From a virus, in IMG/VR virus record IMGVR_UViG_3300006916_000333, positions 1-25,921 of that record: a DNA stretch of 25,921 bases. One strand, given 5' to 3'. Under the pieces are notes generated by a model that saw only the letters and a list, made by a program, of their open reading frames with translations, searched no databases and was not told the origin of the DNA. Position numbers and translations under genes: made by a program. Below, in pieces: positions 1,351 through 20,110 of this stretch (position 1 is the first letter of the stretch; each line of letters begins with the position of its first letter).

Positions 1351-1811
1351 TAAGTATACAACCTTCAACTGAGAAGGATGCAGTAAAACTTGCTAGAAAT
1401 ATGAGAAAGCAAGATATTATGGAAGTAGAAGCCTGTGGTACAGATCCTATATCTGCTTTGTTGTATCCAATAAGAGCAGAAAATGCACAGACTTTTACAT
1501 TATTTTATGACAAAGAACCTGTTTTAATGGGTGGAACTGTAGGAGAAAGTATAGGATTAGCTAGAGTTTGGCTACTCGCTAGTGATAAAGCATTTACAAA
1601 ACCTATGAAAATAGCACTTTTAAGTAGAAAATGGGTAGATTTAATACACAAACCATATGAAATTTTATACAATTATGTGTGGGTTGATAATATAAAAGCT
1701 GTAAAATTACTAAAACATTTAGATTGTCGCTTTGATAATGAAGTTGTAAAAAGAAAAAATCTTGACTTTGTAAAATTTTCTCGTTGCAAAAATAAACATT
1801 TATCGTTATAG
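1347..1811 (+). CDS. gp13-like internal virion protein A (GNAT-fold family)
   Basis: A 154-residue protein whose pattern (ARVWLLASD, a run of Arg/Trp in SRKWVDLI, ILYNYVWVDNIKAVKLLKHL, and a C-terminal FVKFSRC) matches the phage T7 gp13 / DUF2833 family, related in fold to GNAT acetyltransferases. T7 gp13 is needed for correct internal core assembly; acetyltransferase activity has not been demonstrated for this family as far as I know. The ATG overlaps the scaffold stop (ATGA), so translation is probably coupled. The odd point is position: in T7 gene 13 directly precedes genes 14-16, whereas here it sits between scaffold and capsid, as in some other marine podoviruses. Confidence 0.75.
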   Translation: MISIQPSTEKDAVKLARNMRKQDIMEVEACGTDPISALLYPIRAENAQTFTLFYDKEPVLMGGTVGESIGLARVWLLASDKAFTKPMKIALLSRKWVDLIHKPYEILYNYVWVDNIKAVKLLKHLDCRFDNEVVKRKNLDFVKFSRCKNKHLSL

Positions 1812-1918
1812 ATGTATTAGTAGTCCTAGAATATTAGAGTATTGCCCTTCTGGATAACTATACAAAGATACGCTAGATAAACTCGGTGAAACTTTTTTTA
1901 ACTTTATAAGGAGGACTT
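1812..1918 (+). promoter_or_regulatory. Leader of the major capsid gene with strong RBS
   Basis: This 107-base non-coding gap is one of the few in the late arm. It ends in a strong AAGGAGG Shine-Dalgarno sequence (about 1908-1914) next to the capsid ATG at 1919, as expected for the most abundantly made protein. A TTGCCC at about 1850 and AT-rich sequence after it could belong to a promoter, but I find no well-spaced -10 box. A phage-polymerase promoter of unknown consensus remains possible. Confidence 0.4.
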
Positions 1919-2740
1919 ATGTCTGTAGGAATAAGCACTGCTTTTATAAAACAGTTTGAGAGTGACGTTCATATGGCTTATCAGCGAATGGGATCTAAAC
2001 TCAAGGACACCATTAGACAAAAACCAAATGTCAATGGAAATCAAACAGTTTTTCAAAAAGTAGGAAAAGGCTCTGCTGTCCAAAAATCTCGTCATGGACA
2101 AGTGCCTATAATGAATATTGATCATACCAACGTAACAGCGACACTATCGGATTACTTTAGTGCTGACTATGTTGATAGATTAGACGAGTTAAAAACAAAC
2201 ATTGATGAAAGAATGGTAGTTGCACAAAGTGCCGCTGGTGCGTTAGGAAGAAAAACTGACGAACTAATTACTACTGCTCTTGATGGTACATCAAACACAA
2301 CAACAGAATCAGGATCTGCTGGTTTAACCCTAGCAAAGATACAATCAGTTTTTGCTTCAATGGGTGAAAACGATATTCCTGATGATGGTGATAGATACTT
2401 TATAGTATCACCTGATGGTTGGGTTGATCTACTTGACATCAATGCTTTTGCAGATGCCGACTTTATTGGTCAAGACGAACTACCATATAAAGGTGGTATG
2501 GTTGCAAAGAGATGGCTTGGCTTTATGTGGATGGTGCATAGTGGTTTACCAACTACATCAAGTAAAAGACAATGCTTTGCATATCACAGAACTGGTTTGG
2601 GTGTAGCTATGGGTGCTGACGTAACAACCGAAATTAACTACATTCCAGAAAGAGTGTCTAACTTAATAACTGCATATATGAGTTTGGGTGTTGTCTTAAT
2701 TGACGATAACGCAGTCTTTGAAGTGCAGATAGCTGAATAG
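1919..2740 (+). CDS. Major capsid protein
   Basis: A 273-residue protein with the features of the phage capsid family common in BPP-1-like and marine podoviruses: an N-terminal helix with FIKQFESDVHMAYQR, then TVFQKVGKG, HTNVTATLSDYFSADYVD, a central Asp/Gly-rich segment, and a C-terminal domain ending TAYMSLGVVLIDDNAVFEVQ. It is expected to adopt the HK97 fold and build the icosahedral shell; that is family knowledge, not visible directly. Length fits. It has the strongest ribosome binding site in the window (AAGGAGG), follows the scaffold and gp13-like genes, and is followed nine bases later by a small capsid-associated gene. Its base composition is less AT-rich than the internal virion genes, which fits a highly expressed gene. 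Confidence 0.85.
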   Translation: MSVGISTAFIKQFESDVHMAYQRMGSKLKDTIRQKPNVNGNQTVFQKVGKGSAVQKSRHGQVPIMNIDHTNVTATLSDYFSADYVDRLDELKTNIDERMVVAQSAAGALGRKTDELITTALDGTSNTTTESGSAGLTLAKIQSVFASMGENDIPDDGDRYFIVSPDGWVDLLDINAFADADFIGQDELPYKGGMVAKRWLGFMWMVHSGLPTTSSKRQCFAYHRTGLGVAMGADVTTEINYIPERVSNLITAYMSLGVVLIDDNAVFEVQIAE

Positions 2741-14641: not shown

Positions 14642-16717
14642 ATGCCGATAGTCGTAAATGATACAACACCAAGAAACCAGTACACAGCTACGTCTACACA
14701 GACTACGTTCACTTACTCCTTTGAAATATTTGAAGTTACTGATATAAAAGTATTTCAAGGTTCTACACTCCTAACATATGCAAGTAGTCCTTCAGACAAA
14801 ACTGAGTACAGGGTTACTGGTGCTGGTACATCAGGTGGTGGCACTATCGTATTAGGTGGTGGTGCTACTGCTGGAGATGTTTATACACTAGTAAGAGATA
14901 TACCTGTTGCAAGAACAACAGACTTTCCTACATCTGGTCCGTTTGTAATAGATAGTTTAAATACAGATTTAGATAAGATGGTTGCTATGATGGGTGAAAG
15001 AGAAGATGAGATAGCAAGGTCAATAAGACTAACTGATGATGATGCTTCTGCAACATTAACATTACCACTAAAAGCAAGTAGAGCAAATAAAGTATTAACA
15101 TTTAGTAGTACAGGTAATGTAGAAACTTCTATTGCAGCAACAGATGTAAGTACAGTTGCTGGTATTTCAAGTAATATAACAACAGTAAGTGGTATTGCCA
15201 GTAATGTTACAACAGTAGCTGGCATAAGTAGTAATGTAACTACAGTTGCTGGTAAAACATCAGAAATAACTTCTGTTGCGGCAGTTGCTAGTTTAATAAC
15301 TTCTGACTTTGTGTCAGATCTAAACACATTAGCAGTAACAGACGTAGTAAATGATATTAATACATTAGCTACTTCTGATATTGTAAGTGATCTTAATACA
15401 CTAGCAACATCAGATATTGTTAGTGATTTAAATACTTTGGCAACAAGTGACATTGTTTCTGATATAAACACTCTTGCTACAAGTGATATAGTAAGTGATT
15501 TAAATACACTAGCTACTAGTGATTTTGTATCAGATTTAAATACAATAGCTACTTCAACAAACGTAAATAATATTGCAACAGTTGCTGGTAATAACTCAAA
15601 CATAAATACAGTAGCTGGCAACAATTCTAATATTTCTACTGTAGCTGGAATATCAAGTAATGTAACTACTGTTGCTGGTATTTCAAGTAATATTGCTACA
15701 GTCGCTGGTATATCAGCGAATATAACTACAGTTGCTGGTAACAATACAAACATAACAACATTAGCTGGTATTAGTACAGACATAACATCTCTAGCTACTG
15801 CACTTGCATCTACTACAAATTATACTGTTACAGTTGCAAGTGGTACATTATATGGTGGTGGTACTGGTAATGTATTTTATTTAGATGGTACTGGTAATCC
15901 AACAATTACTTTAATAAGAGGTAATACATATGTATTTGATCAAAGTGATTCTAGTAATGCTTCACATCCAATAGCATTTAGAACAAGTGCAGATGCAAGT
16001 TATACAACAGGTGTTACTTCTACTGGTACTCCTGGAAATGCTGGAGCAAAAACTACTTTTGTTGTACCTTCAGATGCACCAACTTCGTTAAAGTATTACT
16101 GTACTACGCATGGAAATGGTATGGGTAATCTTATTACTGTAGACACATCTAACATAAATGTTGTTGCTAGTAATATAGGAGAGGTAAATAGTTTTGCACA
16201 AAGGTATAGAGTAGCAAGTAGTGATCCTACATCATCATTAGATGAAGGTGATCTAGTTTATAATAGTACAGCAAATGCTCTTAAATATTATAACGGATCT
16301 TCTTGGGTAACTATTGTTGCTGGTTCTTTAACAGATATAGTACAGGATGGTAGTCCACAATTAGGTGGTAATCTTGATGTTCAAACTAATTCAATAGTAT
16401 CTACATCAAACAGAGATATAAATATTACACCAGATGGATCTGGTAATGTAGTTTTAGATGGATTAAGTTACCCTTCTAGTGATGGCACAGCAGATCAAGT
16501 GCTTAAAACTGATGGATCAGGAACACTTAGTTTTGGTACAGTACAAGCAAGTGAGTTGACAACAGTCGGAAATTACTTTAGTAATTATAATAGTATAAGT
16601 AGTAATACTACTTCTACAACAGCCAGCACAAAGAATGCTTTTCTCTTTGGACCGATAACTGTAAGTGGTAGTGCTACTTGGACAATAAGTGGCGATGGCA
16701 GTTTAGAAATTTTTTAA
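14642..16717 (+). CDS. Tail fibre with gp17-type N-terminus and cupredoxin-like domain
   Basis: A 691-residue fibre. Residues 1-150 (NQYTATSTQTTFTYSFEIF ... TLVRDIPVARTTDF ... LDKMVAMMGEREDEIARSI) match the T7 gp17 N-terminal domain that anchors fibres to the tail nozzle. Residues about 167-220 are decapeptide repeats (TVAGISSNVT type), 222-305 are seven 12-residue repeats (DIVSDLNTLATS type), and 306-385 return to decapeptides, forming a rod. Residues about 394-502 are a beta domain with His442, Cys487, His490 and Met494 placed like plastocyanin copper ligands. A GGNLDV/DGSGNVV module (about 573-631) shared with the next gene follows, then an end typical of marine phage fibres (GPITVSGSATWTISG). 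It recognises the host surface. An AAGGAT motif precedes the ATG. Confidence 0.85.
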   Translation: MPIVVNDTTPRNQYTATSTQTTFTYSFEIFEVTDIKVFQGSTLLTYASSPSDKTEYRVTGAGTSGGGTIVLGGGATAGDVYTLVRDIPVARTTDFPTSGPFVIDSLNTDLDKMVAMMGEREDEIARSIRLTDDDASATLTLPLKASRANKVLTFSSTGNVETSIAATDVSTVAGISSNITTVSGIASNVTTVAGISSNVTTVAGKTSEITSVAAVASLITSDFVSDLNTLAVTDVVNDINTLATSDIVSDLNTLATSDIVSDLNTLATSDIVSDINTLATSDIVSDLNTLATSDFVSDLNTIATSTNVNNIATVAGNNSNINTVAGNNSNISTVAGISSNVTTVAGISSNIATVAGISANITTVAGNNTNITTLAGISTDITSLATALASTTNYTVTVASGTLYGGGTGNVFYLDGTGNPTITLIRGNTYVFDQSDSSNASHPIAFRTSADASYTTGVTSTGTPGNAGAKTTFVVPSDAPTSLKYYCTTHGNGMGNLITVDTSNINVVASNIGEVNSFAQRYRVASSDPTSSLDEGDLVYNSTANALKYYNGSSWVTIVAGSLTDIVQDGSPQLGGNLDVQTNSIVSTSNRDINITPDGSGNVVLDGLSYPSSDGTADQVLKTDGSGTLSFGTVQASELTTVGNYFSNYNSISSNTTSTTASTKNAFLFGPITVSGSATWTISGDGSLEIF
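15140..15790 (+). repeat. Tandem 30- and 36-base coding repeats of the tail fibre rod
   Basis: Within the fibre gene, blocks of a 10-codon unit (Val-Ala-Gly-x-x-x-Asn-x-x-Thr) flank a central block of seven copies of a 12-codon unit (Asp-x-Val-Ser-Asp-Leu-Asn-Thr-Leu-Ala-Thr-Ser) at 15305-15556. Copies are conserved in protein but vary at synonymous positions, so selection has kept the peptide repeats and not only recent DNA duplication. They probably form a trimeric fibrous stalk; copy number sets its length. Confidence 0.8.
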
Positions 16718-19558: not shown

Positions 19559-20110
19559 ATGAAAGAATGGATTGGATATTACGAAAACGTTTTACCAGAA
19601 ACGTTATCAAAAAATATAATGGATATTAAAGATGGTTGGAAACCATCTGGTTTCTCTAGTCACGAAGGTAGGCTTGACGATAAAAGCAGTAAAGAACGTG
19701 TCGTAATGGATGAGGTATACATTACACAATACACACCATATTATGATGATTTATTTCAGGCTACTCTGAAAGTAGTAAGAGCTTACAAGTTACTACATCC
19801 TTATACAAAGTATATGTCATCAGTAAGATGTACTAACTTTAGAGTAAATAAATATCAAGAAGGTGGTTTTATGTCTGAACACGCAGATGCAATTCATCAT
19901 AGTCATGGACAGCAATACGGATTTCCAGAAGTATCTATACTATTCTTTTTAAATACAGACTATGATGGTGGAGAGTTAGTAGTATCAAACTATACATATA
20001 AACCAAAAAAGAATTCTGCTATTATTTTTCCTGCAAACTTTATGTTTCCTCACTATGTAAAAAAAATTACCAAAGGAACAAGGTATAGCATTATAACTTG
20101 GTTGATGTAG
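19559..20110 (+). CDS. 2-oxoglutarate/Fe(II)-dependent oxygenase, prolyl 4-hydroxylase-like
   Basis: A 183-residue single-domain protein. It shows the full active-site set of the P4H-like double-stranded beta-helix oxygenases: His108-x-Asp110 (SEHADAIHH) and distal His165 (MFPHYVKKI) as iron ligands, and Arg175 (KGTRYSIITWL), ten residues later, to bind 2-oxoglutarate. The Tyr99 in NKYQEGGFMSEH and the strand VSILFFLNTDYDGGELV are also typical. Such genes are common in marine phages, where the substrate (protein prolyl or other residue, or nucleic acid) is generally unknown. It is the last gene of the late arm, 29 bases after the holin with AAAGGTGG upstream, so it is probably made late. Its substrate cannot be inferred. 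Confidence 0.85.
   Translation: MKEWIGYYENVLPETLSKNIMDIKDGWKPSGFSSHEGRLDDKSSKERVVMDEVYITQYTPYYDDLFQATLKVVRAYKLLHPYTKYMSSVRCTNFRVNKYQEGGFMSEHADAIHHSHGQQYGFPEVSILFFLNTDYDGGELVVSNYTYKPKKNSAIIFPANFMFPHYVKKITKGTRYSIITWLM

Follow-up and report, generated by a model that had tools for sequence, protein, structure and literature searches.

The fibre gene and its surroundings

The window analysed here (the whole stretch of viral DNA, 25,921 nucleotides) contains a T7-like tail module around a fibre gene, comprising tail tube proteins, internal virion proteins, the fibre and a holin. For the tail tubular protein, Pelagibacter phages are among the nearest cultured relatives, and Hodr comes closest, at 42%. 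The fibre protein as a whole (691 aa) matches several tail-fibre PHROGs, and its N-terminal region, aa 5-115, matches the 'tail protein' family phrog_1640 (E 2.7e-18). The first-pass annotation had called the fibre T7-type; its gene lies in a podovirus tail module, and the PHROG assignment of the N-terminus is to a tail protein family. The T7 fibre N-terminal family PF03906 did not match the fibre, but the controls were unmatched too, and the fibre has no Pfam match. The features of the gene are collected in Table 1. Beside the holin gene, a 183-aa protein (window 19559-20110) matches 2OG-Fe(II) oxygenase and ferrochelatase PHROGs.

Table 1. Features of the tail fibre gene, with positions in the window.
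Feature	Position	Strand	Basis
Tail fibre gene, 691 aa	14642..16717	+	Open reading frame
Fibre N-terminal domain, aa 5-115	14654..14986	+	phrog_1640; kept whether or not the fibre has the cassette
Repetitive stalk, aa 150-388	15089..15805	+	TVAGISSNI/NTLATSDIVSDL-type repeats; sequence; aligned with cassette-free relatives
Cupredoxin-like cassette, aa 389-502 (114 aa)	15806..16147	+	AlphaFold2 model and PDB matches; L361, L372 and L373 lack the whole block
His442, predicted first copper ligand	CAT 15965..15967	+	Invariant in 49-sequence alignment; 171/171 relatives
Cys487, predicted thiolate ligand, sole Cys of the fibre	TGT 16100..16102	+	Invariant in 49-sequence alignment; 171/171 relatives
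His490, predicted second His ligand	CAT 16109..16111	+	Invariant in 49-sequence alignment; 171/171 relatives
Met494, predicted axial ligand	ATG 16121..16123	+	Invariant in 49-sequence alignment; 171/171 relatives
Fibre C-terminal part, aa 503-691, past the cassette	16148..16714	+	Identical to L361 at 165/183 positions aligned from aa 509 onwards

A predicted copper site

The first-pass annotation had placed a complete set of type-1 copper ligands in a domain of the fibre extending from about residue 394 to 502. The ligand set held, with frame, coordinates and residues all correct; the extent is given here as aa 389-502, the block that is absent from cassette-free relatives. Only three Cys or His residues occur in the whole fibre (one Cys, two His), and each is a predicted ligand. 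When one Cys and two His were placed randomly, such a pattern arose in 16 of 200,000 draws. Because every Cys and His of the fibre is a ligand, and because so few random placements match, the four-residue pattern is not due to chance.

The metal loop formed by Cys487, His490 and Met494 reads Cys-x2-His-x3-Met. In known proteins the spacing after the loop His is x2 in amicyanin and x4 in plastocyanin; the His...Cys-x2-His-x3/4-Met order given by the annotation held, with a loop one residue shorter after the His than that of plastocyanin. The domain probably binds copper. This was an inference when first proposed and remains one, as there is no direct evidence of a metal and there are no ligand distances, and it is possible that the site holds another metal or is empty.

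Predicted fold

Sequence searches of the PDB, with either the single protein or a profile, gave matches at the level of chance only (antibodies, SUMO and, weakly, a plastocyanin at E 0.29), and a fold search was therefore needed. An AlphaFold2 model of the window domain, built from the 49-sequence alignment, had a mean pLDDT of 92.7 and a pTM of 0.85. When the model was compared with the PDB by Foldseek, all 50 of the listed matches were nitrite reductases, multicopper oxidases or other cupredoxin-fold copper proteins, and the viral models that matched it were, where named, tail or structural proteins of marine phages. A second branch of the family, the C-terminal domain of gp9 in T4-like cyanophages, was modelled with a pLDDT of 94.7, and its top Foldseek matches were rusticyanin, AcoP, a pseudoazurin with an engineered amicyanin loop, and amicyanin. 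By query length, the TM-scores of the Foldseek matches in the PDB were modest (about 0.40-0.54).

The best structural alignment of both models was to the N-terminal cupredoxin domain of 2dv6, a nitrite reductase of Hyphomicrobium denitrificans (Z 9.2, rmsd 5.2 over 110 residues for the window domain; Z 10.2, rmsd 2.1 A over 92 residues for the gp9-type domain). The identity to 2dv6 is 21%, however, and the 2dv6 domain is part of an enzyme rather than a fibre. Both branches are thus predicted by the models to have a Greek-key cupredoxin fold, for which there is no solved structure, and this outcome favours the fold originally proposed.

One alternative is that zinc or some other metal is bound structurally in place of copper, and it is known that Cys-His2-Met cupredoxin sites can bind Zn in vitro. 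We consider this very unlikely, because type-1 copper proteins have this set of ligands, this order and this fold, and zinc proteins are absent from the listed PDB matches.

Relation to cellular cupredoxins

Neither Pfam nor NCBIfam has a model for the window domain. The curated cut-off of PF00127 (Copper-bind) was not met: the window domain had no match, and 6 of 49 relatives matched, with a best E of 0.11. For PF25489 (At5g54830-like, cut-off 27 bits), weak similarity was found in several relatives (best E 7.8e-5), the best reaching 23.1 bits, and the window protein did not match. By hhalign, the phage profile was compared with an alignment of cupredoxins that PF00127 had picked out of Rhodobacterales genomes. 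In local mode, the phage profile matched the amicyanin-like set with P 1.1e-5 and a score of 35.9, where 20 column shuffles scored no more than 14.6, and the Cys-His-Met loops of the phage and cellular profiles were in register. The value is a pairwise P and not a database E-value, and the ligand loop is the best-scoring part of the alignment. Against pseudoazurins alone, global mode gave a weak result; it was local mode with more sequences that gave the match.

The small blue copper proteins (rusticyanin, amicyanin, pseudoazurin and plastocyanin) share with the phage domain the predicted Greek-key fold and the His...Cys-x2-His-x2/3-Met order. The phage domain differs from them in being built into virion proteins, in having Pro rather than Asn after the first His, and in failing to reach PF00127.

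Distribution among phages and conservation of the ligands

At E 1e-3 the domain is matched by 326 of 50,697 phage records, whose listed names or hosts are marine and which are mostly of phages of Synechococcus, Prochlorococcus, Pelagibacter and Methylophilales. Its annotated homes are tail fibres, the gp9 baseplate connector and virion structural proteins. The H-P...Y-Y-C-x-x-H segments that the first-pass annotation had noted in other marine phages are real, and its suggestion of a recurring module of marine phage structural proteins held. The gp9 C-terminal domain (phrog_677) is of the same domain family and shares the same four ligands and a location in the virion tail; its loop, however, is C-x2-H-x2-M, and by annotation it lies in a myovirus connector between baseplate wedge and fibre rather than in a podovirus fibre.

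The 171 domains first collected all keep the four ligands. Scans with a motif located upstream of the ligands recovered all four in 70 of 70 distinct copies, and in 53 of 56 in a second such scan. In a pool of 371 distinct copies, which includes the window's own and the gp9- and gp10-type copies, four ligands are kept in 321, three in 1, two in 0, one in 5 and none in 44; at 70% redundancy the corresponding numbers are 88, 1, 0, 4 and 18. Ligand loss is therefore all-or-none, as a metal site would predict, although the counts are not independent events, given shared ancestry. Of the two loop forms, C-x2-H-x3-M occurs in 130 copies and C-x2-H-x2-M in 191, and the residue following the first His is mostly Pro, unlike the Asn of plastocyanin. 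Retention of His, Cys and Met in close and distant homologues is a second outcome in favour of the original proposal.

The ligand-less copies are the gp10-like second copies of cyanophages, L270, L275 and L277. They have lost His, Cys and His together, in at least two lineages by inspection, and retain several fold positions. In the gp10-like proteins L160, L162 and L165-L167 (e.g. L160:5005-5406), the second copy keeps the start motif of the cupredoxin and has lost all or nearly all of the ligands, while the adjoining first copy retains them; the second copies have apparently decayed following duplication. A 775-aa ORF of L326 has a domain copy with His, Cys and His and no aligned Met, followed by a segment that we take to resemble the YHYH family.

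Ligand-less copies that retain fold residues could suggest that the domain is an inert beta-sandwich spacer, in which the cupredoxin fold is kept and the metal is irrelevant, as in Ig-like decoration domains. Against this are the presence of four ligands in 321 of the 371 copies, the all-or-none pattern of loss, the upstream-motif scans and the absence of any other His or Cys from the fibre, and we regard a spacer as very unlikely.

Two further readings were rejected. A chance motif or misread frame is incompatible with the retention of the ligands in 171 relatives and with the fact that all His and Cys residues of the fibre are ligands. A disulfide or other single-residue role for the lone Cys does not account for His, His and Met being kept and lost along with it.

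The domain is an accessory cassette

Fibres were sampled irrespective of the domain by searching with the fibre N-terminus alone; of those found, 12 carry the domain and 11 complete ones lack it. The near-identical cassette-free fibres are 583 aa in length, and some have no Cys or His at all. In L361, 143 of 150 N-terminal residues and 165 of 183 C-terminal residues are identical to the window fibre, the 114-aa block is missing, and there are zero Cys and zero His. Because such near-identical fibres exist, the domain is an accessory cassette, inserted between the stalk and the C-terminal part, and L361-like fibres show that a fibre can be built without it. A fibre-stabilising role, one of those first suggested, is weakened by the same fibres. 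In L363, L364 and L367, fibres of 657 aa, the same N-terminus is followed by another C-terminal half, and thus the distal part has been swapped there, not the cassette alone.

Possible roles of the domain

Although copper binding, ligand geometry and function are all inferred, the explanation that we favour, with moderate confidence, is that the domain is a type-1 (blue) copper cupredoxin cassette that acts in contact with the host surface. The contact role is suggested because of the accessory position of the domain, its cassette behaviour and the strict retention of its ligands. Even if a metal is bound, that role rests on analogy and accessory status only, and is slightly more likely to prove wrong than right. 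Under the favoured scenario, a domain that probably derived from a secreted bacterial family would have been inserted into the fibre as a cassette, copper would be acquired at assembly or from sea water, and the copper-loaded domain would be displayed on the fibre as an accessory surface-contact domain. Copper may then hold the His490-Met494 loop in a shape that docks to a partner on the host surface. The accessory role proposed for the cassette resembles that of Ig-like domains and sugar-binding domains in other phages.

A different possibility is a redox or electron-transfer function, in which Cu(II)/Cu(I) cycling, on a host redox partner or at low envelope potential, would trigger or gate a rearrangement of the fibre or baseplate. 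There are points in its favour: the closest folds of the gp9-type relative are the electron carriers rusticyanin, AcoP and amicyanin; conservation is among the highest in the loop that surrounds the His predicted to be exposed; and the cyanophage domain lies in gp9, annotated as a baseplate-fibre connector, a position in which a switch would be plausible. However, near-relative fibres work without the domain, neither a redox partner nor a second centre was seen, and there is no sequence sign of electron transfer, so that this function seems unlikely. A bolder form of the idea gives many marine phages a redox-active blue copper centre on each fibre or baseplate chain, and supposes that the redox state or exchange of the copper serves to sense or engage the host envelope at adsorption; we consider this improbable as well.

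Metal sites in phage fibres have a precedent, and the closest published idea concerns iron. Iron-binding HxH motifs occur in T4 gp37 and in alterophage fibres, and an ecological role has been proposed for them under the Ferrojan horse hypothesis (PMC11705849). These are likewise metal sites in a phage fibre, but they are octahedral iron sites of paired His residues, whereas the site in the window fibre is a single-chain Cys-His2-Met. A copper counterpart of the Ferrojan horse can be envisaged, with fibres and baseplates serving as copper ligands by which virions bring copper into metal-poor marine hosts or take it from them, and it is consistent with the idea advanced for the HxH motifs in marine phage fibres (PMC11705849) and with the marine origin and oligotrophic hosts of the matched isolates. 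On the other hand, one site per chain would give few atoms per particle, the presence of the cassette differs among close relatives, and type-1 sites usually hold copper tightly. We therefore doubt that metal carriage is the function.

Returning to the copper cassette in host-surface contact, what is known is that phage tails hold iron in His-rich sites; what would be new is a copper site in a virion tail protein. No report of a cupredoxin domain or copper site in a virion was found in the open-access literature, a search that did not extend to subscription papers or preprints. Should the domain bind copper, phages that infect major marine bacteria (Synechococcus, Prochlorococcus, Pelagibacter and Methylophilales) would bear copper proteins on their tails, adsorption would be tied to trace-metal chemistry, and sea water would gain a particulate copper ligand. 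The natural pairs of fibres with and without the cassette make its role directly testable.

Finally, we note that the family is not confined to phages. We read it as a secreted cupredoxin family common to phages and bacteria, with the direction of transfer undetermined. The domain is rare in bacteria, being present in 1 of 150 genomes from Rhodobacterales and 2 of 398 from Pseudomonadota, and a consensus scan of genome contigs gave one cellular locus. PF25489 had no match in 299 Pseudomonadota genomes, in which the controls were unmatched too. A Rhodobacteraceae MAG encodes an RTX-like secreted protein with an N-terminal copy of the domain (L152:4854-6593); the protein also has a metalloprotease-like HExxH segment. 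In a pseudomonadotal genome, two adjacent single-domain relatives (L384:930-1508 and 1477-2031, minus strand) have apparent signal peptides and four ligands in both, and it is possible that they represent a new family of periplasmic blue copper proteins. A glutathione-peroxidase-like gene adjoins the pair.
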